Assembly: GCA_030608865.1 (NCBI GenBank)
Contig: JAUWDI010000006.1
Location: 1-13,758, forward strand
Source of the DNA: Anaerolineales bacterium
GTDB lineage: Bacteria > Chloroflexota > Anaerolineae > Anaerolineales > E44-bin32
DNA: 13,758 nt
Direction of reading: 5' to 3'
The notes under the pieces were generated by a model. The model worked only from the letters and a program-made list of their open reading frames with translations, was not told the DNA's origin and did not search any database. Numbering within the stretch: the stretch's first letter is position 1; each line of letters opens with the position of its first letter. A program made the translations under genes and the position numbers. Shown here piece after piece: positions 493 through 13,758 of this stretch.

Positions 493-1830
493 CTATCCAG
501 ATACTTCGGAACTATCCCCTAGAAGATAGGGACGGAACTCCCTCTCAAGACGTTGTGGAAGTTTGCCACTAATTACAACCTGATCGCGATCGTATGCAAC
601 ACTTGCGACTTCTCCGTGATCATGGAATATGCTGATTAAGTGGCCTTCCTTATACGGCAACTCTACAGTTACATCCAACGAGTCTTCAAACATTACTCGC
701 TCAATAACCGCCAACAAAGTGTCCACTCCATCTCCCCTACGCGCTGAAATTGGGACTGCGCGCTCGAAGGAATCGACCTGGTCGAAAATGTATTCCTGAT
801 CAGGGACCCGATCAATCTTATTCAAAGCAGTAACCATCGGAATACCAGAAACTTGTATCTCCTCGAGCGTCGCCTGGACAGCCTCTGCTTGAGAAGCAGC
901 GTTCGCATGAGAAATATCGACGACATGGAGGAGTAAATCTGCTTCATGGATCTCCTCCAGGGTTGCTCTGAATGCAGCGATAAGCCCTGTGGGCAGTTTC
1001 TGAATGAAACCAACCGTATCTGTAAAGAGGAACGGATGCCCCTTCGAAGTAGTCACACGGCGGGTTGTAGGATCTAACGTCGCGAATAGCTCGTTGGCCA
1101 CATAAACTTCAGCATCTGACAAGTAATTTAGAAGCGTTGATTTACCTGCATTTGTGTAGCCAACTAGCGCTACTGTGGGAATCGCAGACCGTTTCCTGCG
1201 CTCCCGATGGCGACTACGATGTGCGCGGACTTTCTCTAATTCTTTCTTCAAATTGGCGATCCGTCGCCGGATTTGGCGGCGGTCAACTTCAAGCTGGGTT
1301 TCGCCCGGTCCCCGAAGCCCGACACCGCCAACAGACCCAGAACGTCCTCCACCTCCACCTGCCTGCCTGGCAAGATGTGTCCAAGCCCGAGTAAGCCTTG
1401 GCAATTGGTACTCATATTGTGCCAACTCTACTTGCAGAGCGCCCTCACGTGTTTGCGCATGCTGAGCGAAGATATCAAGGATTAACGCGGTGCGATCGAC
1501 GATTTGAACAGATTCCCCGAATTCCTTCTCTAGCTCTCGCTGATGCCTGGGGTTGAGTTCATCATCGAATAGCACGACATCTGCGACGAGATCCTCCACT
1601 AGAGCTTTAATTTCTCTGATTTTCCCTGACCCCATATAGGTTTTCGAATTGGGATGCTCAAGAGTTTGCTGTGCCTGCCCCACAACGCCCAAACCAGCTG
1701 TTTCAGCAAGGAGTGCGAGTTCTTGAAGCGAATCATCAATCGTAAGCAAACCAGGTTGGTTTTTGATATTAAGACCGACCAAGAAAGCTCGTTCTTGCGG
1801 GTTTGTCGTAGGTGCAGCGACCTTACTCAT
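493..1830 (-). CDS. hflX: GTPase HflX
   Basis: HflX is a ribosome-associated GTPase that in other bacteria splits stalled 70S ribosomes under heat and other stress. The 445-residue product has the HflX N-terminal domain, a glycine-rich linker ending in GLRGPGETQLEVDRR, a helical segment, and then the G domain: G1 GYTNAGKST (224-232), G3 DTVGF (271-275), G4 NKID (337-340), G5 SAR (362-364), plus a short C-terminal domain. All GTP-binding motifs are intact. An in-frame TTG at 1854 would add eight residues, but the ATG at 1830 is preferred because GGAG lies eight bases upstream (1842-1839). The start overlaps the end of the upstream kinase gene (ATGAGTAA), which implies translational coupling and a shared transcript with that kinase. 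Confidence 0.96.
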   Translation of the reverse strand: MSKVAAPTTNPQERAFLVGLNIKNQPGLLTIDDSLQELALLAETAGLGVVGQAQQTLEHPNSKTYMGSGKIREIKALVEDLVADVVLFDDELNPRHQRELEKEFGESVQIVDRTALILDIFAQHAQTREGALQVELAQYEYQLPRLTRAWTHLARQAGGGGGRSGSVGGVGLRGPGETQLEVDRRQIRRRIANLKKELEKVRAHRSRHRERRKRSAIPTVALVGYTNAGKSTLLNYLSDAEVYVANELFATLDPTTRRVTTSKGHPFLFTDTVGFIQKLPTGLIAAFRATLEEIHEADLLLHVVDISHANAASQAEAVQATLEEIQVSGIPMVTALNKIDRVPDQEYIFDQVDSFERAVPISARRGDGVDTLLAVIERVMFEDSLDVTVELPYKEGHLISIFHDHGEVASVAYDRDQVVISGKLPQRLEREFRPYLLGDSSEVSG

Positions 1831-3058
1831 CTTCCGCGCTCCGCACGTGACCAAGCAAGCGCGCCGCCAAATCGTCCGGTGGTGACTCTCGGAAGGGAAA
1901 CATCAAGTGGAAGGTGCTTCCTGGGCAAAGTTCTTCATCATAACCCTGTGATTCGACCCATATTGCTCCCCCATGCGCTTCGATAATCCCTTTTGCCAGG
2001 TGCAACCCAAGACCAGGACCAGGCACCACGCCATCATTTCTGGCATACTTTAGCCGTTGCCCTGCACCGAATTTCTCGAAAATCAACGCTTGCGCACTCG
2101 GGTCGATGCCAACGCCGGTGTCAGCGATCGTAATCTCGATAAAGCCGGGAAGCATTCTTCCATCCACGACGATCGAACCACCCTCGGGTGTGAATTTTAC
2201 TGAATTGTCAAGCACATTGATGATGGCTTGTAGAAGCCTTTCGGAGTCAACGAATACTGTTTCTTCTGCCGCCGGGAAAATATTTATCTCCAAGTTTTGG
2301 GATCGCTCGGCAACTTTGGCTTCCATCATTGTCTTTGTTTTCTCGAGCAGATCCTTTATCTGCAGTGGTTGATAGTGCAACAGCAGCATATTCGTGTCAA
2401 TCATGGAGATATCAACCAATTCATCAATCGTGTGTCTCAATTTCTGAATCCCTGACTCCACACCAGCTACAAGAGGGCCACTTTCTAAGTCGCTGCTCAA
2501 TATCATTTCTTTGAGCATTTCTGTATAACCCTCAATAAGTGTCAGCGGTGTTCTCAATTCTTGTGCTGCTACTGTCACGAAATTCAAACGGGTTTCGTCG
2601 AGCAGTTCAGAAGCTTCTTTAATCTTGTCTCGGCTCGTTGTAAGCTTCTCAATAATCGCCGCGAATTCCCGATATGCAGCATATTCAATAATCTGACAGA
2701 ATTGAACCTCAAGGTCGTTTTGATATCTAAGCGCCCTCTCAGGGTCCGAATTTTTTTGGATGACGGCAAACGCTGCTACCCGAAGGACATGCAACACGGA
2801 GACGATGCCTCGCTCTTGGTACCCTCTCAACGCTTCTCCAACCGAGTCAAACGCTATGGGGGCAACAATCAATTCGTCGATACGTTTTTCCAGAACGTTC
2901 AATTCAGCGGTGAGCTTGGCTTCAAGGAGAGCATCGAGAAAGTTTTCCAACTCATCAAGTGAAAGCGTCGAATCCTCGCTGTTAATAGCTAGCATCCTAA
3001 CGGATTCGTCCACCCAATCCTGTCGATGCTTAAGGAAGAAATCAACTGTATCAATCAT
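1823..3058 (-). CDS. Histidine-kinase homologue lacking the phospho-acceptor histidine
   Basis: A 411-residue soluble protein with no membrane segment. Residues 1-150 are predicted mostly helical and match no domain I can name with confidence (an RsbRD-N-like helical sensor domain is one guess). A DHp-like region follows at about 150-220, then a complete HATPase_c domain: N box with N281 and N285, DTGVGI (313-318), an F-box-like FEKFGAG, and the G2 loop GPGLGL (347-352). The H box reads VAAQELRTPLTLI, so Gln166 (codon CAA at 2563-2561) stands where kinases of this family have the phosphorylated His; the following Glu-Leu-Arg-Thr-Pro is intact. Canonical autophosphorylation is therefore not expected. 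It may be an ATP-binding regulator, a phosphatase-only homologue, or a partner of another kinase. It is 93 bases downstream of the peptidase gene; I see no clear promoter or terminator in that gap. Confidence 0.9.
   Translation of the reverse strand: MIDTVDFFLKHRQDWVDESVRMLAINSEDSTLSLDELENFLDALLEAKLTAELNVLEKRIDELIVAPIAFDSVGEALRGYQERGIVSVLHVLRVAAFAVIQKNSDPERALRYQNDLEVQFCQIIEYAAYREFAAIIEKLTTSRDKIKEASELLDETRLNFVTVAAQELRTPLTLIEGYTEMLKEMILSSDLESGPLVAGVESGIQKLRHTIDELVDISMIDTNMLLLHYQPLQIKDLLEKTKTMMEAKVAERSQNLEINIFPAAEETVFVDSERLLQAIINVLDNSVKFTPEGGSIVVDGRMLPGFIEITIADTGVGIDPSAQALIFEKFGAGQRLKYARNDGVVPGPGLGLHLAKGIIEAHGGAIWVESQGYDEELCPGSTFHLMFPFRESPPDDLAARLLGHVRSAEDE
1839..1842 (-). promoter_or_regulatory. 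Ribosome binding site that fixes the hflX start
   Basis: GGAG on the minus strand lies eight bases before the ATG at 1830 and inside the last codons of the upstream kinase gene. The alternative TTG start at 1854 has no comparable site. Confidence 0.6.
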
Positions 3059-3151
3059 ATGCTGTTCATCATCCGTAAATATGCGCTCCGCCGATCAATT
3101 AATGCATTAAGTCTACTCAGATTTTTAACCTTGGGTACATTTAATAGGCGC

Positions 3152-4060
3152 TTAGCGTTCGTTCTCTAACCAGTGCTCTAAAGTTCGACCAACCTGTTCC
3201 AGGCTATCTGCGGATACCTTATCCATTGTGTCATTGACCGTGTGCCAGTGAGGGTAGTCAAAATCAATAATATCAATTGCGGGAACACCAATCCGTAGAA
3301 ACGGAGAATGATCATCGATCATTGAATACTTCGGAGTATTAATAAATGCTGGGTATCCTAACTGATTAGCCAACTCCCAGATTTCTTGCACAAGGTCGGG
3401 GTCAGAGTTTTTCTCGATAAAGAGCTGCAGATCCCGGTCCCCGACCATGTCGACAATCACTGCCGCTTCTAAATTCTGTGCGAGATTATCAGCGAAGAAA
3501 GACGATCCGACAATCCAGTCCCATCCATCAATATTCCCGCTGTCTTCTGCATCAAAAAACACCAGCCATACCGGCTGTCTTAAACGATTCCAATCCAACG
3601 TATGGGCAAGTTCTATCAGAACCGCGACTCCCGATGCACCGTCGTTGGCGCCTGGCACCGGCGCCTCGGGATTAATTGGGTCCCGATCTGCGTATGGCCG
3701 GGTATCGTAATGTGCCCCTATTAGTATAGGCTTAATTTCGTTATCGCCTTCCGATTTAGCAATAATATTCATTAGCGGTGTTCCGTGATAACTGAAGTGC
3801 TGGATTTCAGTCTCCCAGCCGATTGCTTCCAGTTGTTCGACGATCCATACGGCTGTTTTCCGGCTCGCTTCACTTCCGGGTATGCGCGGACCAAATGCCA
3901 TCTGCTCTTCTACAAAAAGAAGCGCGCTCTGCCCGTCGAATTGGACGTCTTGACTGGGCGTAGAGCACGAAAATTGCGCAAACAGCAGTATTACACACAA
4001 ACTTCGCATAGCCTTTGTAATTATCAATGAATTAGATAAAGAATGGTTGCTTACCTCCAT
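3152..4060 (-). CDS. Exported M28-family zinc hydrolase, glutaminyl-peptide cyclotransferase-like
   Basis: A zinc-dependent hydrolase/cyclase of peptidase family M28. With the ATG at 4060 it has 302 residues. A hydrophobic stretch MRSLCVILLFAQFSC (18-32) looks like a signal sequence, possibly of a lipoprotein with a poor lipobox (Cys32), so the enzyme is probably exported. Likely metal and catalytic residues are His117 (GAHYDT), Asp140 (GANDGASG), Glu172-Asp173 (FFDAEDSG), Asp204 (VDMVGD), Asp250-His251 (MIDDHSPF) and His273 (PHWHTVND). The DDHSPFLRIGVP and WHT motifs resemble bacterial glutaminyl cyclases, but the full two-metal ligand set of aminopeptidases is also present, so the reaction is uncertain. 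A start at 4168 would run into trmFO and is rejected; the ATG at 4009, right at the signal sequence, is a real alternative (285 residues). The 4060 start lies 13 bases after the trmFO stop, suggesting one operon. Confidence 0.85.
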   Translation of the reverse strand: MEVSNHSLSNSLIITKAMRSLCVILLFAQFSCSTPSQDVQFDGQSALLFVEEQMAFGPRIPGSEASRKTAVWIVEQLEAIGWETEIQHFSYHGTPLMNIIAKSEGDNEIKPILIGAHYDTRPYADRDPINPEAPVPGANDGASGVAVLIELAHTLDWNRLRQPVWLVFFDAEDSGNIDGWDWIVGSSFFADNLAQNLEAAVIVDMVGDRDLQLFIEKNSDPDLVQEIWELANQLGYPAFINTPKYSMIDDHSPFLRIGVPAIDIIDFDYPHWHTVNDTMDKVSADSLEQVGRTLEHWLENER

Positions 4061-4073
4061 ATGGCTATGCGCA

Positions 4074-5426
4074 TTATCTCTGTGTGTTTTCAATAAATTC
4101 AGCCAATACCACCGCTGATCTTTCAGCATAGGCGCTCGCGCGCTCACGGCGATTCCGCTTCCGCCCATCTTCCAGCGGTGGCATTAAACCGAAGTTCGCT
4201 TTCATCGGTTGAAACAATTTCGTATCCGCATGCGCAATATAATGAGCCAAGGAACCGAGCATGGTCTCCCGCGGCATGACTAAAAGATCCTCACCTTTTA
4301 TTCGTCGAGAGAGATTTATTCCTGCCAATAAACCCGTTGCGATATTCCCCAAGTATCCTTCCACCCCAGTGAGCTGACCAGCGAAGAAGAGATCGCTCCT
4401 CTCTAAATGCTGCATATCCGCCTTCAACTGGGTCGGGGCGTTCAAGAACGTATTCCTGTGCATTTGGCCATAACGTTGAAAACGCGCCTTTTCCAAACCG
4501 GGGATCATCCGAAAGACAGTGCGCTGGTCGTCGTAGGTCAAATTCGTTTGGAAACCCACCATATTGTAGAGACTTCCCGCCAGGTTATCCTGTCGAAGTT
4601 GAAGGACGGCATGTGGCCGCTTCCCACTCCTGGGATCTCTCAGCCCGACAGGACGCATAGGTCCAAAGGCTAAACTATCCCTGCCTCGCTCGGCGATAAT
4701 TTCGACCGGCAAACATCCCTCAAAGTAATGATGCGCGCCAGCACGCACTCCCCCTTCGATTTCTTTTTCAAAACTCCTGAGCAGGATCCTTTCCGCCTGG
4801 AGCAAGCTATCAATGAATGCTTCATATTCCTCTTTGTTTAGCGGACAGTTGATGTAGTCCCCCTCCTCCCGATCTCCTCGCTCATAACGTGAAGCACGGA
4901 AAGCGATGGACATATCGATACTCTCCGCGTCGACGATTGGCGCGAGCGCATCGAAGAAAAAGAGGTGGTCCTGACCAGACAAACCGCCAATCGCCTGTGT
5001 CAGTGAATCTGAAGTCAAAGGTCCAGAGGCGATAATCACAAATCCGTCAGGGATGCTCTTCGCTTCGTTGCGTATGATCTGGATCAGCGGATGTTTTTCA
5101 ATTTGCTCCGTCACATCTCGTGCAAAATGCTCTCGATCAACGGCTAAGGCACCCCCTGCAGGAACTGCGTTCCGCTCTGCGCAGATCAATAATATGGAAC
5201 CTAAAGCCCTCAATTCTGACATAAGGACTCCAGAGGCTCGATCTGGCAGCTTAGAACCAAGCGAATTAGAGCATACTAACTCTGCAAGGTATCCCGTTTG
5301 GTGCGCTCCTGTCGAAATGTCAGGCCGCATCTCAAAGAGATTAACGCTGATACCACGCTTCGCCAGCTGCCACGCCGCTTCGCTGCCCGCTAATCCTCCC
5401 CCCACTACAACTGCATCTGCATTCAC
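4074..5426 (-). CDS. trmFO: Methylenetetrahydrofolate-tRNA (uracil-54 C5)-methyltransferase TrmFO
   Basis: TrmFO makes ribothymidine at position 54 of the tRNA T-loop using 5,10-methylenetetrahydrofolate and FADH2. The 450-residue product is normal length. The N-terminus has the dinucleotide-binding [13 protein letters not shown], followed by [17 protein letters not shown]. The two cysteines known to matter in this family are present: Cys52 (LVCSNS) and Cys238 (FEGCLPVE). The conserved [16 protein letters not shown] segment near the C-terminus is also intact. The start is a GTG at 5426; an in-frame TAG three codons upstream rules out a longer form, and there is no strong Shine-Dalgarno. It is the first gene of the leftward group and diverges from rpoN. 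A sigma-54-type promoter match points at it, with a predicted leader of about 26 bases. Confidence 0.96.
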
Positions 5427-5442
5427 CCTGCGATTCTATCAC

Positions 5443-5454
5443 GCCAACGTTGGC
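5443..5454. repeat. Perfect 12-bp palindrome overlapping a -24 element
   Basis: GCCAACGTTGGC is its own reverse complement. Its right arm supplies most of the TTGGCA -24 box of the rpoN-directed sigma-54 promoter. It could be an operator for a dimeric regulator, or simply a by-product of the promoter element. Confidence 0.4.
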
Positions 5455-5467
5455 ATAGTTCTTGCAA
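5450..5467 (+). promoter_or_regulatory. Sigma-54 promoter for rpoN
   Basis: TTGGCA (5450-5455), a six-base spacer, then TTGCAA (5462-5467). The GG at 5452-5453 and GC at 5464-5465 have the invariant 12-base step of -24/-12 promoters. The predicted start of transcription is near 5477, giving a leader of about 42 bases before the rpoN ATG. The 11 bases CTTGCAACATT around the -12 box are repeated exactly at the promoter at 10106. The match departs from consensus only at the CG after TTGGCA. Confidence 0.75.
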
Positions 5468-5479
5468 CATTATTGCCAG
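5462..5479 (-). promoter_or_regulatory. Sigma-54 promoter toward trmFO, mirrored on the same -12 box
   Basis: Read on the minus strand: CTGGCA (5479-5474), a six-base spacer, then TTGCAA (5467-5462), with correct GG-to-GC spacing. Because TTGCAA is self-complementary, this promoter shares its -12 box with the rpoN promoter. The predicted transcription start is near 5452, 26 bases before the trmFO GTG. Seen in sequence; its activity is inferred. Confidence 0.6.
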
Positions 5480-5501
5480 CATTGTCCAGTCGATGTATAC
5501 T
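5473..5501 (+). promoter_or_regulatory. Possible sigma-70-type promoter for rpoN
   Basis: TTGCCA (5473-5478), a 17-base spacer and TATACT (5496-5501) each match the housekeeping consensus at five of six positions. The predicted start, near 5508, would leave a leader of only about 11 bases, beginning at the ribosome binding site. The -35 box overlaps the -24 box of the trmFO-directed sigma-54 promoter, so the two would compete. It could supply the basal sigma-54 needed before autoactivation. Confidence 0.4.
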
Positions 5502-5508
5502 CACCTGC

Positions 5509-5512
5509 GAGG
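5509..5512 (+). promoter_or_regulatory. Ribosome binding site that fixes the rpoN start
   Basis: GAGG lies six bases before the ATG at 5519. The longer reading frame that opens at TTG 5462 would start inside the -12 promoter box and is therefore rejected. Confidence 0.65.
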
Positions 5513-5518
5513 CGCAAT

Positions 5519-6934
5519 ATGTTTCGTCAAACCCAAGACCATTCACTCAGGCCACTTACGACCGCTCACCTTGCTCAGACAATGAGCCTCCTGGTTTTGT
5601 CCAATCAGGAGCTGCACGATCGAGTTATCACCGAACTTTCATCGAATCCTGCTTTGGAGCTTCTTGACGAGCGCATCTGCCCTGGCTGCCATAAGCCCCT
5701 GAGCAGCGCCGGGCCCTGCCCCGTATGCAGTCGCCAGGTTGAAGGCGAAGAACCGATTGTGTTTCTCTCACCTCGCGATTCCTACCGGCCATCACGAAAA
5801 AGAACACTTGAAGATCAACCGCTGGATCAAGAACCCGCAGCGCCAGAGGATCTTTCCATACATGTTATGCGCCAACTAGCGGCTGATCTCAAGAAGGAAG
5901 ACAGGCACGTCGCGGTTTATATCCTTGCCAGTCTAGACGAAGATGGCTTCCTAACCAGCCCCCCACCCTACATCGCGCAAGCCACACGTTCCAGCCTGCC
6001 GCAGGTTATGAGGGTCATCGACTTGATATATAAAGCCGACCCAGTCGGCCTGGCAACCGAGGGCCCCCGACAAACGCTTCTCGTTCAACTCGATCAATTG
6101 AGTCAAGAAGAAGAACCTCGCTGTGAACTGGCACGCCGGTTGCTGCGTGAATCATTTTCTGAACTCGGGCGCAGGGAGTACGACAAGATCGCTCACGACC
6201 TCGAAGTTAGCCCTGCTGCTGTGAAGGAAGCAGCCGCTTTCATTCACGACAACTTAAACCCCTACCCCGCTCGAGCATACTGGGGATCCGGACGGCAACC
6301 GCAATCTGGCGACTCAAATGTCTACCACACGCCAGACGTCATGATCTCGCGTAACCCATCTGTCATTGACGGCCCGCTGATGGTTGAAATCTTCTCGTCG
6401 ATTTCCGGCTGGCTCCGGGTGAACCCTCTTTTCCGGCAAGCCATGCCGGAGGCTGATGAAGAGCAGAGCGAGGAGTGGTCTGAGCATCTGGAAAAGGCGA
6501 ATCTCTTTGTAAAATGCATTCAGCAGCGCAATAACACGATGCAGCGCCTGATGGGTTTGCTCGTATCACAGCAAAGCGGTTTTATATTGGAAGGCGCTCG
6601 TTTCCTCAAACCAATGACGCGCGCCCAGATTGCAGGAGAGATCGGCGTACACGAATCCACAATCTCAAGAGCAGTTGCGAATAAATCAGTCGCTATGCCA
6701 AACGGCAGAATAATTCCTCTCGCCAAATTCTTCGACCGCAGCCTTTCTGTGCGTGATCGGATCAAAGAGATTGTCGAGAACGAATCCAAACCACTGACAG
6801 ATGATGTAATCGCCTCGCTTTTACAAGAAGAAGGGATTAAGATAGCACGCAGGACTGTCGCGAAATACCGTGCGGTTGAAGGTATTCTGCCAGCTCGATT
6901 ACGCGGGGCAAGAAAACTATCGCCGGCAGCCTAA
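5519..6934 (+). CDS. rpoN: RNA polymerase sigma-54 factor with a zinc-ribbon-like insert
   Basis: Sigma-54 directs RNA polymerase to -24/-12 promoters and needs an ATP-driven activator. The 471-residue product has region I (about 9-50; the activator-contact segment around AQTMSLLVLSNQELHDRV), then an unusual CPGC-x9-CPVC cluster (Cys54, 57, 67, 70) where most sigma-54 proteins have an acidic linker. The core-binding region follows (DADPVG-like KADPVGLATEGPRQTLLVQL, later FVKCIQQRNNTMQRL), then the HTH with GVHESTISRAVANK (about 366-395) and the RpoN box ARRTVAKYR (443-451), which reads the -24 element. All functional signatures are present, so the gene looks active. It starts at ATG 5519 behind GAGG. 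Its promoter region holds sigma-54 matches, implying autoregulation. The kinase gene follows after 10 bases, consistent with one operon. Confidence 0.96.
   Translation: MFRQTQDHSLRPLTTAHLAQTMSLLVLSNQELHDRVITELSSNPALELLDERICPGCHKPLSSAGPCPVCSRQVEGEEPIVFLSPRDSYRPSRKRTLEDQPLDQEPAAPEDLSIHVMRQLAADLKKEDRHVAVYILASLDEDGFLTSPPPYIAQATRSSLPQVMRVIDLIYKADPVGLATEGPRQTLLVQLDQLSQEEEPRCELARRLLRESFSELGRREYDKIAHDLEVSPAAVKEAAAFIHDNLNPYPARAYWGSGRQPQSGDSNVYHTPDVMISRNPSVIDGPLMVEIFSSISGWLRVNPLFRQAMPEADEEQSEEWSEHLEKANLFVKCIQQRNNTMQRLMGLLVSQQSGFILEGARFLKPMTRAQIAGEIGVHESTISRAVANKSVAMPNGRIIPLAKFFDRSLSVRDRIKEIVENESKPLTDDVIASLLQEEGIKIARRTVAKYRAVEGILPARLRGARKLSPAA
6128..6144 (+). promoter_or_regulatory. Consensus sigma-54 promoter match inside rpoN
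   Basis: CTGGCACG (6128-6135), four bases, then TTGCT (6140-6144); the GG-to-GC step is exact and the match to YTGGCACG-N4-TTGCW is complete. It lies within the coding sequence (codons for Leu-Ala-Arg-Arg-Leu-Leu). It could start a transcript near 6155 that reads into the kinase and activator genes, or it may be coincidence or a binding-only site. Confidence 0.4.
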
Positions 6935-6944
6935 GGTGTAATCT

Positions 6945-8921
6945 TTGGCAAAGGATACTTCACCCACCAATCCGATCTCACGCTTATTTAAGTCTGATCC
7001 CTACCGCGAGCTCTTTCTCTCCCTCGCTGATACTTTAGACAACTCCGTCCTGGTTTTATCCGGGACGGAATCGCGTCTACTCACATGCAATCATGAATTC
7101 CTGCTTCTCTCAGGCTACGCCCGAAAGGATCTCGATGATATAAGCCCCTCCACCCTTTTTCCAGGTGAAGAAGGCCACGTTATGCTCGAGCAGATCCTTG
7201 ACACTTGGGAGAACCCGGATTGCAAACTCCACGATGTTCCACTGCAGACACGTACGGGGGAAATCGTCCTCATTGACCTCGAAGCGCACCCAATCGCCCC
7301 ACCTAGAACAGCTGTCCTTCTCCAAATAAAGCCTGCGAGTGCTCGCTCGCAAATAGAACAACGCAAACTTGCCGAGGAGACGCTCCTTCGCAGCTTGGAG
7401 AACATCACAAACTTGATCCTGACGGGAGGCACCTCCGCCCTACCAACGGCTCTTGAGCTCTGCCAGGATCCGCTTTGCGCGTCCTACACCGCAATCTATA
7501 GGCTTTCGGCGACCTCCCCCAACTATTTCATCGAGGGCGTACTGCCCCCCGAATTCCCAGAATCGGTCCCTGCCGCCGAAATCGGCAATTTGCAGACGTT
7601 CACATCTTGGAGCCTGGGCCAACGCCCAGAGGGCGAACTACAGCGTGCAGCGAGAACCGCAGAGCTCACCCATCTGAAAACCGCACTGATTGGTGATGAT
7701 TCTGCCTGGATCGGTATTTTCATCGCCGGCTGGAAAGAGGAGATCGCGTTAAGTCCCGACATCGATCCGCTGATCCGCATCATCGCTAACCTCCTCCACA
7801 CTGCGATCTATCTGAGCCAGCTGCGATCCACCATCCTCGAGGGCGAAACGACGATGGAGGCGCTCGAGGCAGAGATCACGAGTCAATTCGAGGCTATCTC
7901 GGATACGCTGATAACAGTGGACTCTTCGCTCACGATAATTAGAGCAAATTCCGCGATCAACCGCCTGCTTGGTTACCACCCACACGAAGTTAAAGACCTT
8001 GCCATCCAGGATGTTCTTGTAGGTCCCGAGGATGTAACAACTACAATCCTCGACGCATTGGGACACAAGCGCATTGCAGAACGTTCAAGACTCATACTTC
8101 ACCATCGCGATGGCACGCGTCTGCCGGTCCATTTACGGGTTATCCCTATGGCTGGAGCTGCAGACGATCAACTTCTCATCGTTCTAGGTGACCAATCCGA
8201 ACAGCAGGCCATTGAAGATCAAACAGAAATCCTGGCGCAGAGAGCCCTGCTAGGAGAAGTCACAGCGATTTTCGCTCATGAAGTGAGAAATCCCATTAAC
8301 AACATATCCACCGGTGTCCAGCTCGTCGCCTCGCGTCTTGGTGAAAGTCACCCACAATTCGCGGCGCTGGGCACCATTCGGTCGGAGTGTGTTCGCCTCG
8401 ACCAGCTGATGAGCGACGTTCTCTTCTTCGCCCGCCCGCTCCAGCTTAAGATGGACCCCCTAGATCTCGCTGAGCTTCTTCAGAGAGTGATCACGAGATG
8501 GGCGCCGCGCTTTAATCAAACAGGCACTCGCTGCCACACTTCATTCGATCCTGATACGCCGCTCGCTTCAGCAGATCCGAGGACACTTGAACGCGTCATC
8601 GTAAACCTTATTAGTAATGCTCTTGAAGCCATGACTGAAGGCGGCACACTCTCCATTAATATCGCCCCAATAGGCCCTGCCCAACAAAGTATGATCGAGT
8701 TGAAGGTCGCGGATACCGGCCCAGGCATCCCCCCTGACAAGATCCACCGCATATTTGACCCCTTTTTCACCACGAAGAAGGACGGGACAGGCCTGGGGCT
8801 TGCGATTAGTCGACGCATAATAACTGCCCATAAAGGGACAATTCAGGTCGAGAGCTTTCCTGATGCAGGTACTGTGTTTACAATTCACCTTCCATCTGCA
8901 GACCTTAGCTCCAAGGAGTGA
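6945..8921 (+). CDS. Cytosolic sensor histidine kinase (PAS-GAF-PAS), NtrB-like
   Basis: A 658-residue kinase without signal peptide or membrane segments, so it senses something in the cytoplasm. The order is a PAS-like domain (about 22-130), a GAF-like region (about 145-295), a second PAS (about 312-418, with ANSAINRLLGY and HRDGTRLPVHLRV), then the HisKA domain with FAHEVRNPINNIS (phospho-acceptor His445) and HATPase_c with the N box NLISNALEAM (554-563), DTGPGI (590-595), FDPFFTTK and GTGLGLA (614-620). The HEVRNPI box and catalytic domain are of the NtrB/ZraS class that partners sigma-54 activators. The start is a TTG at 6945 with AAGG spaced eight bases upstream, overlapping the rpoN stop. 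The next gene, three bases after the stop, encodes the expected partner regulator. The ligands of the PAS and GAF domains are unknown; no heme or flavin motif was recognised. Confidence 0.93.
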   Translation: MAKDTSPTNPISRLFKSDPYRELFLSLADTLDNSVLVLSGTESRLLTCNHEFLLLSGYARKDLDDISPSTLFPGEEGHVMLEQILDTWENPDCKLHDVPLQTRTGEIVLIDLEAHPIAPPRTAVLLQIKPASARSQIEQRKLAEETLLRSLENITNLILTGGTSALPTALELCQDPLCASYTAIYRLSATSPNYFIEGVLPPEFPESVPAAEIGNLQTFTSWSLGQRPEGELQRAARTAELTHLKTALIGDDSAWIGIFIAGWKEEIALSPDIDPLIRIIANLLHTAIYLSQLRSTILEGETTMEALEAEITSQFEAISDTLITVDSSLTIIRANSAINRLLGYHPHEVKDLAIQDVLVGPEDVTTTILDALGHKRIAERSRLILHHRDGTRLPVHLRVIPMAGAADDQLLIVLGDQSEQQAIEDQTEILAQRALLGEVTAIFAHEVRNPINNISTGVQLVASRLGESHPQFAALGTIRSECVRLDQLMSDVLFFARPLQLKMDPLDLAELLQRVITRWAPRFNQTGTRCHTSFDPDTPLASADPRTLERVIVNLISNALEAMTEGGTLSINIAPIGPAQQSMIELKVADTGPGIPPDKIHRIFDPFFTTKKDGTGLGLAISRRIITAHKGTIQVESFPDAGTVFTIHLPSADLSSKE

Positions 8922-8924
8922 TGA

Positions 8925-10100
8925 ATGACCGCAACGGTATTGATCGTTGACGATGAAGAGACCGCCCGCAATTTCATCAGCGAAGCGTTGAGTGATGCTG
9001 GTTACGAAGCAATTGAAGCGGGGACCCTGAAGGAAGCAAACAAAGCGATCGATAAGGGTGTAGGAGATATCATCCTGCTCGACGTCATGCTCCCCGACGG
9101 ATCCGGACTATCTTTGCTCGACCGCCTCGCCATGGAAAATCCACGACCACCGGTGATCTTGATCACTGCTTTTGGAGAAATCGATACAGCAGTCGATGCG
9201 ATGAAGAAAGGCGCACTGGATTTCCTGCAAAAACCCCTCGATCTCGACCGCTTACTTCAAGCTATTGAGCGATCATCCGAAGTTGTCGGTCTGCGTCGGG
9301 AGCTTGATCTCCTGCGCCGAACTTCAATTCTTGAAACCGAGATGGTCATTGGCGATACTCAGATCATGAAACAGATCATGCACGAAGCCGAGCGTGCAGC
9401 CCAAGCCGCCGTCTCTGTACTGATCACGGGTGAAACCGGGACAGGCAAGGAAGTCCTTGCTCGATCGATTCACAGTTTCGGGCCACGTGCAGATACACCT
9501 TTTATTCCCATTAACTGCGCTGCGCTGCCGGATACGATGATCGAATCGGAGCTTTTTGGTCATGAGGCAGGAGCCTTCACCGGTGCGCAAAAAAAGAAAC
9601 CGGGGTTGATCGAGATCGCTGACGGCGGCATCCTCTTCCTCGACGAAATATCCTCGACCAAGCAGGAAATGCAAGCCAAGCTGCTGCGCGTCCTGGATGA
9701 GCAAAAATTCAGACGAGTCGGCGGGGTAAAAGAAATTGCCGTTGACGTTCAGATCATCGCGGCTTCGAATCGAAACCTCCCGGCGATGATCGAGGAGGGC
9801 ACCTTCAGGGAGGACCTCTACTACCGGCTAAAAGTGGTCGATCTTCACCTCCCGCCCCTTCGTGATCGCATTGTCGATCTTCCAGCGCTTACGGGTAACT
9901 TCATCCGTCAAATCAATCTTCGTGTCGGCGGTGTCGTTGAAGGAATCACGCCGCGTGCGCTGGACGCGTTGAAAGCTCACTCCTGGCCCGGCAACATCCG
10001 AGAACTCCGTCACGTGGTCGAGCGGGCAATCCTGTTTTGCGACGAGGAAAACATCGATCTCGCACACCTACCGCCTGACATCCGCGATCTCACTCCCTGA
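8925..10100 (+). CDS. Sigma-54 activator response regulator without a DNA-binding domain
   Basis: An NtrC-family bacterial enhancer-binding-type protein, 391 residues. The receiver domain (1-120) has the acidic pocket Asp9-Asp10, phospho-acceptor Asp53 (LLDVMLPDG), Thr81 and Lys103. The AAA+ domain (about 140-385) has Walker A GETGTGKE (169-176), the sigma-54-contacting GAFTGA loop (216-221), Walker B GGILFLDE (234-241), the arginine-finger region REDLYYRL (295-302) and sensor II WPGNIREL (354-361). The protein stops about 30 residues after sensor II, so the Fis-type HTH that normally ends this family is absent. The stop is followed six bases later by a sigma-54 promoter, so this is not an obvious frameshift remnant. 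AAGGAG lies six bases before the ATG. Known activators lacking the HTH (for example Helicobacter pylori FlgR) work from solution; the same is inferred here. Confidence 0.95.
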   Translation: MTATVLIVDDEETARNFISEALSDAGYEAIEAGTLKEANKAIDKGVGDIILLDVMLPDGSGLSLLDRLAMENPRPPVILITAFGEIDTAVDAMKKGALDFLQKPLDLDRLLQAIERSSEVVGLRRELDLLRRTSILETEMVIGDTQIMKQIMHEAERAAQAAVSVLITGETGTGKEVLARSIHSFGPRADTPFIPINCAALPDTMIESELFGHEAGAFTGAQKKKPGLIEIADGGILFLDEISSTKQEMQAKLLRVLDEQKFRRVGGVKEIAVDVQIIAASNRNLPAMIEEGTFREDLYYRLKVVDLHLPPLRDRIVDLPALTGNFIRQINLRVGGVVEGITPRALDALKAHSWPGNIRELRHVVERAILFCDEENIDLAHLPPDIRDLTP

Positions 10101-10105
10101 TCTTT

Positions 10106-10122
10106 TTGGCACGCTACTTGCA
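10106..10122 (+). promoter_or_regulatory. Consensus sigma-54 promoter for the membrane/TPR genes
   Basis: TTGGCACG (10106-10113), four bases, then TTGCA (10118-10122), a full match to the -24/-12 consensus with GG (10108-10109) and GC (10120-10121) correctly spaced. The predicted transcription start is near 10133, leaving a leader of about 25 bases. It lies six bases after the activator stop codon, in the only sizeable gap of the rightward gene group. Confidence 0.9.
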
Positions 10123-10157
10123 ACATTCGCCTTCAGACGCATTACCTGGAGGCGAAA

Positions 10158-10490
10158 ATGATTCCCCTTACCTTTAGCGACGTTCAAATCCTCATAGCTG
10201 CATCCATCTTTATCTTGGGCTTCTTGTTGGTGCTCATCGGTGCCTTAGTTTTAGTCAGCCGAGGCTATTCCCGAGAAGTGCGGGCATTGGCAGCTCACAC
10301 CGCCAGACTTGGCCAGAAAGGCCTTGCCCAAGACGTGACGGGGCTTGTAACCAGCGCATCTGAGCTCGTCGCTTCGCTCAATGGCCTTGTTCGTACCGCA
10401 AGCGGAATCGGCGTTTTGCTGATTTCAGTTGGATTGGGCTTGATGTACGCCGGCTATTGGGTCATTCAGCAAATCAGCTGGACAATCTAA
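10158..10490 (+). CDS. Small two-TM membrane protein of unknown function
   Basis: I do not recognise a family. The 110-residue protein has two hydrophobic segments (about 9-34 and 82-105) joined by a polar, helix-prone loop of some 45 residues. The basic SRGYSREVR just after the first segment suggests that the loop faces the cytoplasm with both ends outside. There is no catalytic motif and no cleavable signal. A strong GGAGG lies five bases before the ATG. It is the first gene behind the consensus sigma-54 promoter at 10106 and is followed after 17 bases by the giant TPR gene, so the two are probably co-expressed. A role as membrane anchor or partner of the TPR protein is a guess from position only. 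Confidence 0.85.
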   Translation: MIPLTFSDVQILIAASIFILGFLLVLIGALVLVSRGYSREVRALAAHTARLGQKGLAQDVTGLVTSASELVASLNGLVRTASGIGVLLISVGLGLMYAGYWVIQQISWTI

Positions 10491-10507: not shown

Positions 10508-13500
10508 ATGCTCAATGACACGGACATCTTGCAGTATTTAAACCAAGTCCTGAACGAAGAAGATCTTTCCAGTGCAATCCACAGAATCCTGTATGTGCCC
10601 GAGGCATGGCGCGAGATTCACAACAACGAATTCCTCACCCTTGCTCTGGAGAAGATCGATCGTGCTGGTTGGTCCCCCGCCACCCTGGCTTCTCTAGCTA
10701 TCGGACAATCTTCGTTATCTAGCGCGCTGGACGCTCTCTCCTCCGAACAGGAGAGCCGCATCACAAATCTAATGGATTTGAATGTTGACGCTGAGAGCAA
10801 AAGTCTTGTTGACATCGCGCTGCTCTCTGTCACGCTGTTGAGAATTGCGGCTGATGAAGGATTGGATGGGCTAACGGAAGCGATATTAAAAAGCACAGAT
10901 TTCTGGGCTCCGGCGCTTTGCTGCGCGTGGCCTTATCTCGAGTTTGGGCAAGAAATAATCGATGCCCTAATCCGGGAAGGAAGTCAAGCTGCGATAGGGT
11001 TGGTAACACAAATACTGCATTCGAATATGGATGTCCCCAGTGCCGTTGAGATTCTTTCAGATCTTGACCCTACCTTAATTCGTAAAGTACTAATCAATTT
11101 GAACACCATGCACGAGGATGAATTATTCCTGGCTCTTTCTGAATCGGTCAATGAAGAACTCAACCCGATTCCAGCGAATAATCAACAAGACCCAGGCGGT
11201 CTTTCAGAACAGGCGATTATTCTTGCCGCAGCGGGGAATGCCGCTGGCGCGCAAGAAATCGTCTCTCAAGCTTGGGATCGAACCACCTTGACCTCAGCGT
11301 TGGTCGCAGATCGATTGGCTGATATTGCCAGAATGGATGACGATCCGGTACTTGAAGTGGAGGCACGCAAGCAAGCGCTCCAATTGAAGCTCACGCCAAG
11401 ACGGCGTGCTGAGCTGGCAAAGGCGTACGTTCAAATCGATCGCCCTCAAGACGCTCTTGACTTACTCCTGGAGCCGGCGACGGCGGAAGAATTTATCGCT
11501 GCTGGTCAAGCATATGAGCTTTCAAACGAATCGGCGTTAGCTGCAGACTACTTCATCCAGGCCTACCAACAGTCCTTAAGTGCCCCTGCACTGGATCCCA
11601 CATGGATGGCCATGCTCTCCAGCGGCCTTGATGCGTCAGGCAAGTACCGCGAAGCTGTCCAGGTTCTTGAGATCCTATCTGTGCAAAAACCAGTCGATGC
11701 AGAACTACGACATAATCTAGCCACTTTGCTTGAGAAGGCTGGCGATCCTAATGCGGCAGCCGAGCAAGCATCATTTGCGCTCACGCTTATGCCGAAATCG
11801 CTCGAATTGCGCGAAACACTGGCTCGCAACTTACAGAAATCCGGTCACTCAGAACAGGCTATCCCACATTGGCAAACCATCACTTTGCAGGACAAACAAG
11901 CACTTGCGAAGTTGAGCGCCTGTGCCCTGGAGGCCGGCGATTACACCTTAGCGAAGGAAAGCGCAGAGGAGCTTCGCTTGGATAACCCCGAATCCGTGGA
12001 GGCCCAAGTCCTTTTGGGCAAAGCCCTTTCTGCTTTAGGAGAACATCAGGAAGCTGAAACTCACTTAAAGAAAGTGACGCAGCTGACCCCCAGTGATGCC
12101 GAAGCATGGATCGCACTTGCGGAATGCCAGATGGCGACAGGCGATGAAGATACTGCCAACGAGACATTGAACTCCGCCCTCCAAGCCTTGCCAGCTAGCG
12201 GAGCTGTTCATATCGCCAAAGCGCATTGGCTCCGGGAAAAATCCGTGCAGACTGAAGCACTCGAGCATATCCGCCAGGCCGTAGAACTTGACCCAGAGCG
12301 AGCGGATTGGCTTGTAGATTATGGGGATCTACTCCGGGAGCTTGGTCGCGCAGAAGAAGCGACACCGATTCTGCAGTCAGCTTTGGATAAGCAGCCGGAA
12401 AACTGGAAAGCTCGCCAAGCTTTAGCTCTCACCTTCGAAAGCCAGGGTGAAATGGCTTCAGCTGCAGCTCTTATTAAAAGCCTTCCCACGAATCTCGACT
12501 CCGAATCTCTTTGGAACGCTGGACGCATTCTCGTCCAGACCCCTTCCGCTCAAGAAGAAACCGCTTACGAAGTCGGTGTTGAAACCCTTGAAATGGCTCG
12601 CGAGGCCGGATTTGATGACAACGCCATAGATTACTGGATTGCACATGGTCTTCGTCGTCAGGATCTCAACGAGGAAGCTATCAATCATTACCAGTCATTT
12701 CTGGACAATTCAGAGGATCTCCCCAGCGAGGAACATCTGCAAGGCGTACTCGGTCTCGCGGATGCTGCAATTGCAATGGATGATGCAATGTTAGCCATTG
12801 CAACAATGGAGAAACATCGCGGTCAGTACCCGACCTCTCTTGAAATGCTCATACTTCTCGCGAAAGCACATATGTCTCTCAATGACTTCGGTGCTGCAAA
12901 AAACCTCGCTCGCCAGGCCTTTGAGCGCAACCCGATCGAGACAGATGCACTCTCAATTTTGTGCATCGCTGCGGAAGCGGATGGCTCGCTAGACGAAGCT
13001 ATCTCTGCACGAAAACAACTCACCAAACTTCAGCCAGAACAATCAGAACCCTGGCTAGAACTCGCCCGGCTTGAATGGCTGTCAGGGAACAAGGACGCAA
13101 GCCGCAATCACCTGGCATGCAGTCTTTCTCTGGGCCGGAGAGATAAGCAAACCCTGCAAAAAGCCGCCACACTATGCGGCGAATTCAAATTCCCCCGTCT
13201 GCAATTACGGTTACTCCAGCGCGCTTCATCACTCGATGAAAATGACTCAAGCATTCATAAGGAATTGGCGCTTGCAGCTGAAAGCAATGGCAATTTTGAA
13301 TTGGCGCAGCAGGCTTGGTTGCATATTGCCGATCTTCTTCCAAAAGACACTTACCCTCTTGACCGTGCCGCGGACGCACTCTGGAAACTGGATAAGAGAA
13401 CCGCAGCTATTGGATTGTGGGAGCAAGCTACCCAGATCGACCCGGAAAACGCCCTGCACTTTACCGCGCTCGGACGAGCCTACATGCAAATTGGTGAGAT

Positions 13501-13758
13501 ACAGCGCAGTCTGAACTGCTTCGGTCATGCCCTGGCACTCCAACCGAACGATCCAGACTTCCTCGTTGAAGCTGGTTCAGCGATGACATGCTCAGGTTCG
13601 CCTGAGGAGGGCTTGGGGGCTCTGCAGAAGGCAGTTTCACTTGTACCGAACGATCCCATCCCCCTGATCGCTCTCGCAGAAACACTTCACCTGCTTGGAC
13701 GCAATACAGATGCCCGCGCGGCGCTAGACCGGGCAGCAATACTTGCGCCCCTCTCCGC
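10508..13758 (+). CDS. Giant TPR-repeat protein, truncated by the window edge
   Basis: One uninterrupted frame of at least 1083 codons runs off the right edge. No signal peptide or membrane segment is seen, so it is probably cytoplasmic. The first 230 or so residues are helical and repeat-like without clear TPR consensus. From about residue 300 tandem tetratricopeptide repeats dominate, for example GKALSALGEHQEAETHLKKV, then LEHIRQAVELDPERADWLVD near 586, and ALALQPNDPDFLVEAGSAM near the end. TPR arrays are protein-interaction scaffolds; no enzymatic domain is visible in this part, but one could lie beyond the edge. The ATG at 10508 is chosen for the GGA eight bases upstream; an ATG three codons earlier (10499) is possible. 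It shares the sigma-54-controlled transcript with the two-TM protein. Confidence 0.9.
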   Translation, partial: MLNDTDILQYLNQVLNEEDLSSAIHRILYVPEAWREIHNNEFLTLALEKIDRAGWSPATLASLAIGQSSLSSALDALSSEQESRITNLMDLNVDAESKSLVDIALLSVTLLRIAADEGLDGLTEAILKSTDFWAPALCCAWPYLEFGQEIIDALIREGSQAAIGLVTQILHSNMDVPSAVEILSDLDPTLIRKVLINLNTMHEDELFLALSESVNEELNPIPANNQQDPGGLSEQAIILAAAGNAAGAQEIVSQAWDRTTLTSALVADRLADIARMDDDPVLEVEARKQALQLKLTPRRRAELAKAYVQIDRPQDALDLLLEPATAEEFIAAGQAYELSNESALAADYFIQAYQQSLSAPALDPTWMAMLSSGLDASGKYREAVQVLEILSVQKPVDAELRHNLATLLEKAGDPNAAAEQASFALTLMPKSLELRETLARNLQKSGHSEQAIPHWQTITLQDKQALAKLSACALEAGDYTLAKESAEELRLDNPESVEAQVLLGKALSALGEHQEAETHLKKVTQLTPSDAEAWIALAECQMATGDEDTANETLNSALQALPASGAVHIAKAHWLREKSVQTEALEHIRQAVELDPERADWLVDYGDLLRELGRAEEATPILQSALDKQPENWKARQALALTFESQGEMASAAALIKSLPTNLDSESLWNAGRILVQTPSAQEETAYEVGVETLEMAREAGFDDNAIDYWIAHGLRRQDLNEEAINHYQSFLDNSEDLPSEEHLQGVLGLADAAIAMDDAMLAIATMEKHRGQYPTSLEMLILLAKAHMSLNDFGAAKNLARQAFERNPIETDALSILCIAAEADGSLDEAISARKQLTKLQPEQSEPWLELARLEWLSGNKDASRNHLACSLSLGRRDKQTLQKAATLCGEFKFPRLQLRLLQRASSLDENDSSIHKELALAAESNGNFELAQQAWLHIADLLPKDTYPLDRAADALWKLDKRTAAIGLWEQATQIDPENALHFTALGRAYMQIGEIQRSLNCFGHALALQPNDPDFLVEAGSAMTCSGSPEEGLGALQKAVSLVPNDPIPLIALAETLHLLGRNTDARAALDRAAILAPLS

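Follow-up and report, generated by a model that had tools for sequence, protein, structure and literature searches.

A putative self-amplifying sigma-54 switch linked to a second, altered FtsZ in relatives of an Anaerolineales bacterium

The known roles of sigma-54 relate to nitrogen, to motility and to the cell exterior, and the activator FlgR serves flagella. The chlamydial CtcB-CtcC/sigma-54 system is a two-component system whose activator is composed of regulatory and ATPase domains without a DNA-binding domain, and its proposed regulon of 64 genes is rich in secretion and membrane proteins and has been tied to membrane proteins and developmental conversion (PMC7482065). FlgR of Helicobacter and the type Ic activators are likewise NtrC-type proteins without a DNA-binding domain, and about 4% of surveyed activators are devoid of the DNA-binding and/or the signal domain (PMC3162934); loss of the activator DNA-binding domain is known from both CtcC and FlgR (PMC3162934, PMC7482065). 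Additional FtsZ copies encoded outside the dcw cluster, some of them in conserved loci, have been described in bacteria, with Bipolaricuta as a named example (PMC9871819). The chloroplast pair FtsZ1/FtsZ2, two proteins of different filament behaviour that work together, provides a model of mechanism, and E. coli FtsZ D212A has 7% of its GTPase activity left (PMC8142252).

The window (the whole 13,758-nt stretch of DNA that was analysed) harbored, in a row on the + strand, rpoN, the gene of a soluble PAS kinase, that of an NtrC-type activator, a 110-aa gene and a giant TPR gene, with the following features:

5451..5466, + strand: P1, putative sigma-54 -24/-12 element before rpoN, TGGCATAGTTCTTGCA (pattern match plus conservation in relatives)
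5473..5501, + strand: candidate sigma-70 promoter TTGCCA-17-TATACT just after P1 (pattern scan, 10 of 12)
5519..6934, + strand: rpoN, 471 aa (all three Pfam sigma-54 domains)
5678..5728, + strand: CxxC-9-CxxC in region II of RpoN, residues 54-70, between the activator-interacting and core-binding domains
6945..8921, + strand: soluble PAS sensor histidine kinase of AtoS/NtrB type, 658 aa (PAS, HisKA and HATPase domains)
8925..10100, + strand: activator, 391 aa (REC, AAA with GAFTGA, and lid; without a DNA-binding domain)
10107..10122, + strand: P2, putative sigma-54 element before the output operon, TGGCACGCTACTTGCA (pattern match plus conservation in relatives)
10158..10490, + strand: two-TM protein, 110 aa (no Pfam family; TM segments by hydropathy scan)
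10508..13758, + strand: giant TPR protein, its 3' part lying beyond the window end at 13758 (1729-aa ORF in relative L002)

The output operon began after P2 and extended beyond 10490, where the stretch originally described ended, its giant TPR gene running past the window end. Divergent genes on the - strand were trmFO (4074-5426), an M28 peptidase gene, a second histidine kinase gene and the gene of a GTPase that we take to be HflX-like; this block (493-5426) was often retained beside rpoN.

Relatives were collected by an RpoN-alignment scan of named genomes, and the best 80 loci of at least 590 relatives were used; their titles read Anaerolineae, Chloroflexi, or genera such as Brevefilum, Flexilinea and Candidatus Aquidulcis, which we take to be Chloroflexota genera. 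All genome-wide counts given below refer to relatives of the window organism, and the sampled genomes share ancestry, the counts not being independent. The order rpoN, kinase, activator was kept in all 70 of the 80 loci that had room to show it; the original prediction, in which rpoN, an NtrB-like kinase, an activator and an output operon lie consecutively with sigma-54 elements before rpoN and before the output, was confirmed, and the neighbourhood proved to be conserved across relatives. The closest named relative of the window RpoN came from Anaerolineales (95%), and in the 95% relative L002/L144 rpoN, kinase, activator, P2 output and the TIM-barrel/ftsZ2 set (see below) were contiguous.

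The window RpoN matched PF00309, PF04963 and PF04552 (activator-interacting, core-binding and DNA-binding domains), all above cut-off, and scored 252.8 bits against TIGR02395, below the cut-off of 277. Each of 20 relative genomes (20/20) had one RpoN above cut-off, and RpoN was present in 72 of the 201 genomes of a Chloroflexota phylum sample, a result that overturned the earlier suggestion that sigma-54 is uncommon in this phylum. Recognition of -24/-12 elements by this RpoN is predicted from the conservation of the sites. The CxxC-9-CxxC motif was invariant in 20/20 RpoN proteins, a CxxC..CxxC was found in 79/79 relatives, and the one aligned solved sigma-54 chain had none; the two cysteine pairs look zinc-ribbon-like and might possibly allow sigma-54 itself to respond to metal or redox state.

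No TM segment was found in the kinase by hydropathy scan. The window activator displayed REC, Sigma54_activat with GAFTGA (233.8 bits) and lid, and no HTH family was found in it by Pfam search. Among 73 aligned activators (the window's own and the 72 found complete in the 80 loci), the C-terminal tail after the AAA lid was 0-26 residues in 73/73, and HTH_8 was not among the matches listed for the activators (25 of 31 families). Three activators of deeper class lineages, located beside similar output genes, contained HTH_8 (Fis-type) in 3/3 tested, and by this comparison the DNA-binding domain appears to have been lost in this order. The activator loop was GAFTGA in 41/73, GAFTSA in 22 and other in 10; with GAFTSA or another variant in 32/73, some activators may therefore be weak.

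Strong activators, defined by a PF00158 line of 200 bits that was set after the scores were seen, were counted in three samples: (i) 24 RpoN-selected genomes, each with one match above 200 bits and two of them (G013 and G023) with a second near 160 bits, that of G013 having no GAFTGA-like loop by pattern; (ii) an order-wide sample of 81 genomes not selected for RpoN, of which 61 had a strong activator, exactly one in 60/61, and 55 of these 61 had no further match of at least 100 bits; and (iii) a class-wide sample, with a strong activator in 15/70 genomes. PF00158 matches below 40 bits were rejected as activators and treated as other AAA proteins; the family gave matches in all 14 controls. 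The expectation of a single activator thus held in nearly all activator-bearing genomes of the order sample and, together with one RpoN per genome and the conserved gene order, spoke for a dedicated sigma-54 switch as originally predicted.

P1 and P2 showed two departures (at 5451) and zero departures (at 10107), respectively, from TGGCACG-N4-TTGCW. The window contained five matches with at most two mismatches versus 2.3 expected, and 13/200 shuffles reached five; by match count in the window alone, P1 and P2 were not beyond chance; it is position and conservation that decide. A perfect match at 6129 inside rpoN, with one departure at the same place in L002, was taken as chance. For P1, a site with at most two departures (GG/GC fixed) was located within 150 bp of rpoN in 66/79 relatives and one with at most three departures in 75/79, versus 71/874 and 113/874, respectively, of the control ORF starts (ORFs >150 aa of these 80 loci, the target genes themselves included). 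For P2, 38 of the 40 loci where the two-TM gene followed the activator had a site with at most two departures no more than 150 bp from that gene, 37 of these 38 sites at -41 to -62; of the 67 loci with room, 23 showed no two-TM gene in the stretch seen and 4 had it further on. In L057 and L058 (RUG isolates, Chloroflexi), the 110-aa gene started 2 bp after the activator without P2, an arrangement that looks like a fusion with the first operon. When nine upstream regions were aligned, both elements kept their GGCA and TTGCA blocks and the flanks drifted: P1 and P2 stand out as islands of conservation in DNA that diverges around them. The sigma-70-like promoter at 5473-5501 was the best of 5 found, with 3.9 expected by chance, and its TATACTC was present in 7/9 aligned upstream regions; it could supply basal RpoN, with P1 providing the feedback.

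Genome-wide, the strict pattern was found at 3-13 sites in each of the 20 RpoN-bearing genomes. The class sample (Levilinea left out of this comparison) averaged 3.7 strict sites in 14 genomes with a strong activator and 2.2 in 55 without (p 0.08), with control totals of 17 and 46, respectively, and two genomes without a strong activator carried 11 and 14 strict sites, the 14 being those of G240. The handful of sites that had been anticipated was present, but activator-less class genomes also had some. The totals failed to separate genomes with and without the activator, so many strict sites are background; bare site totals are a poor guide, and only recurrent positions carry weight.

The recurrent positions were four: (i) before rpoN, (ii) before the two-TM plus giant TPR genes, (iii) before the TIM-barrel gene plus the second ftsZ (P3), and (iv) in the rsmH-ftsL gap (P4). 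P3, P4 and ftsZ2 are all located outside the window and are known from relatives. P3 was a strict same-strand site upstream of 15/18 second-ftsZ genes in the 20 genomes, 12 of them with 81-127 bp between site and Tubulin-domain match, and three (G001, G004 and G016) at a distance of about 1.4 kb, where the site precedes the TIM-barrel gene; G002 and G020 had a one-departure site before the TIM-barrel gene, Pelolinea (G017/L200) contained ftsZ2 with no P3 match, and with 7 sites in a genome the chance expectation for any one gene was about 0.002. P4 was a strict site that lay at the stop codon of rsmH or between rsmH and the gene following it, in 11/20 genomes (in G006 only the downstream gene was in view); the gene in ftsL position after it had no Pfam match and was followed by the transpeptidase PBP and Mur ligase genes of dcw (Pfam names from L156 only). 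G018 instead had a site between two genes resembling ftsA and ftsZ1. The circuit, previously envisaged as complete in one locus, thus did combine rpoN, kinase, activator and P2 output at one place, but its sites were also found before ftsZ2, whether linked or not, and in dcw.

It could be argued that the -24/-12 matches arose by chance or have no function, and that the neighbourhood is a neutral relic, given that the number of matches in the window by itself was within reach of chance and that site totals barely separated genomes with the activator from those without it. This explanation is very improbable in view of the positional conservation of P1 and P2, the reversed-pattern control (12 versus 134 sites in the 20 genomes), and the recurrence of P3 and P4 across genomes.

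Another 46 matches from 11 genomes were inspected, and 25 of them were located outside ORFs >100 aa: one was P4 of G006, and the others preceded lipoprotein, kinase and uncharacterised genes, so the regulon may be wider. Individual cases included (i) L148 (a GAF histidine kinase) and L211 (GAF match below cut-off), from two genomes, whose gene starts resemble each other and both have a strict sigma-54 site upstream, a possible further target; (ii) similar lipoproteins in two genomes (L220 and L233) with a strict site 64-80 bp upstream; and (iii) an identical site plus gene start occurring twice on one Levilinea contig (L227 and L228), a duplicated putative target. Sites of this kind would also be expected of an ordinary NtrBC-like nutrient or stress response that includes envelope genes among its targets by chance, with FtsZ2 as one of many, and the kinase and the activator did score best against the AtoS and AtoC models, respectively. 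However, the equivalog cut-offs of the NtrBC pair were missed (385 of 558.6 bits for ntrC and 99 of 240 for NR(II)), the activator was the only one and had no DNA-binding domain, and the same output genes were linked across the class; we consider such a response quite unlikely, and a dedicated switch remains the preferred reading.

A second FtsZ was found in 18/20 RpoN-bearing genomes. In the order sample, it was present in 53/61 genomes with a strong activator versus 7/20 without (Fisher 2e-5); in the class sample, 8/55 genomes without a strong activator had two FtsZ (by a line of 60 bits, set after the scores were seen). The TIM-barrel gene was located immediately before FtsZ in 61/63, and its family was also present in 8/20 order genomes without a strong activator; genome incompleteness possibly lies behind the activator-less genomes with this family or with two FtsZ. 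The partner protein was assigned the TIM-barrel fold of the glycoside hydrolase clan, the placement by Foldseek alone being weak; of a possible catalytic acid pair it had a near-invariant E145 after strand 138-141, no conserved acid was discerned after strand 236-242, and no Pfam family was found in the 2/2 tested.

The sequence comparison of the FtsZ proteins was made with rows <250 aa omitted from the alignment and the FtsZ-like row of L206 omitted from the tree. The 23 order-level FtsZ2 copies formed one side of a 100/100 branch and joined four deeper cluster copies (97/98); one deep copy, L207, was a very long branch. FtsZ1 displayed the T7 loop LINLDFADVR in 16/16, and FtsZ2 was without one catalytic T7-loop aspartate in 23/23 order-level copies, the last aspartate being replaced with His in 20 and Asn in 1 and the other aspartate being lost in 2; the two residues are presumably D209 and D212. 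L149 and L150 had INRGFAD, in which D212 was kept and the other catalytic aspartate was lost. The deeper copies were mixed at this loop, L203, L204 and L205 retaining both aspartates. Against TIGR00065, FtsZ2 scored 377.6 and 382.6 bits in the two copies tested (2/2; cut-off 295.2). It thus scores as a true FtsZ, and the FtsZ-like families of PMC2875224, a paper in which a term search found no Chloroflexi, TPR or sigma-54, were rejected as its identity.

Even with a real and dedicated switch, FtsZ2 might not be a division protein, and the TIM-barrel, two-TM and giant TPR proteins might instead join it in building a distinct structure, cytoskeletal or membrane-associated: FtsZ2 forms a clade of its own with an altered T7 loop, its gene is located away from the FtsZ1 locus and adjoins the TIM-barrel gene, and in many relatives it is linked to giant TPR and small membrane protein genes. 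Two observations speak against this, namely a C-terminal peptide of the DLD(I/L)PAFLRRR type retained in 20/23 FtsZ2 (by reading of the alignment) and the same sigma-54 element before the dcw gene in ftsL position in 11/20 genomes, and we regard a structure apart from division as unlikely.

The whole is probably best read as a dedicated, self-amplifying sigma-54 switch that controls itself together with a second, altered FtsZ and its partners, for conditional division or envelope remodelling. The cytosolic PAS kinase would sense a signal and phosphorylate the adjoining activator, which, by analogy with CtcC and FlgR, would act from solution on any closed sigma-54 complex, since it has no DNA-binding domain; this could work because it is normally the sole sigma-54 activator. 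Active holoenzyme would then raise the rpoN-kinase-activator operon via P1, a putative positive feedback, and would switch on (i) the P2 module of two-TM and giant TPR proteins, (ii) the P3 module of TIM-barrel protein, FtsZ2 and small membrane proteins, and (iii) in many relatives, the P4 promoter inside dcw, before the gene in ftsL position. FtsZ2 may polymerise or join FtsZ1 filaments and would be expected to hydrolyse GTP poorly because one catalytic T7-loop aspartate is missing; the outcome would be a ring or cytoskeleton of greater stability, which the FtsZ2 C-terminal peptide would hold and which would serve a conditional division mode or envelope remodelling. The recurrent site positions, the missing DNA-binding domain of the activator and the second FtsZ all go beyond the original prediction. 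More tentatively, with somewhat more doubt than confidence, the set might be a lineage-specific second division machine, in which a hydrolysis-impaired FtsZ2, the TIM-barrel and two-TM proteins and giant TPR scaffolds would be governed by a bistable switch whose sole free activator also fires within dcw, yielding an alternative, conditional form of bacterial division.

Among the matches listed, the open PMC literature offered no link of sigma-54 to FtsZ or division in Chloroflexota, and the open literature offered no precedent for the regulon; the table of Francke et al. gave cell cycle/cell division a minus for sigma-54, activators and promoters in the excerpt cited (PMC3162934). If the proposed switch is true, a sigma factor would here be left with a single activator and a small number of recurrent promoters, that of a second FtsZ included. 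This would be a natural test of the shrinkage of a sigma-54 system, the three deeper activators tested having the DNA-binding domain that this order has apparently lost, and would open a way into the division of a large, little-studied bacterial group of cultured and uncultured Chloroflexota (named strains: Levilinea, Ornatilinea, Pelolinea and Flexilinea).

The nearest precedent for the switch would be CtcB/CtcC of Chlamydia, judged from the excerpts of PMC7482065. Compared to that system, rpoN, kinase and activator were here arranged in one row with a putative sigma-54 element before rpoN, and the recurrent targets were a second FtsZ, TPR proteins and the dcw cluster, instead of the chlamydial regulon. 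In contrast to the flagellar role of FlgR, no flagellar genes were noticed among the outputs here. Compared to other additional FtsZ proteins as excerpted from PMC9871819, the copy described here was encoded in a putative sigma-54 operon, had a TIM-barrel gene beside it, and was without one T7-loop aspartate. Compared to the chloroplast pair, of which both copies are required (PMC8142252, excerpt), the two FtsZ proteins of these bacteria differed in organism and origin and are known from sequence alone, but the plastid pair still provides a working model of how two FtsZ proteins with different filament behaviour could act together.
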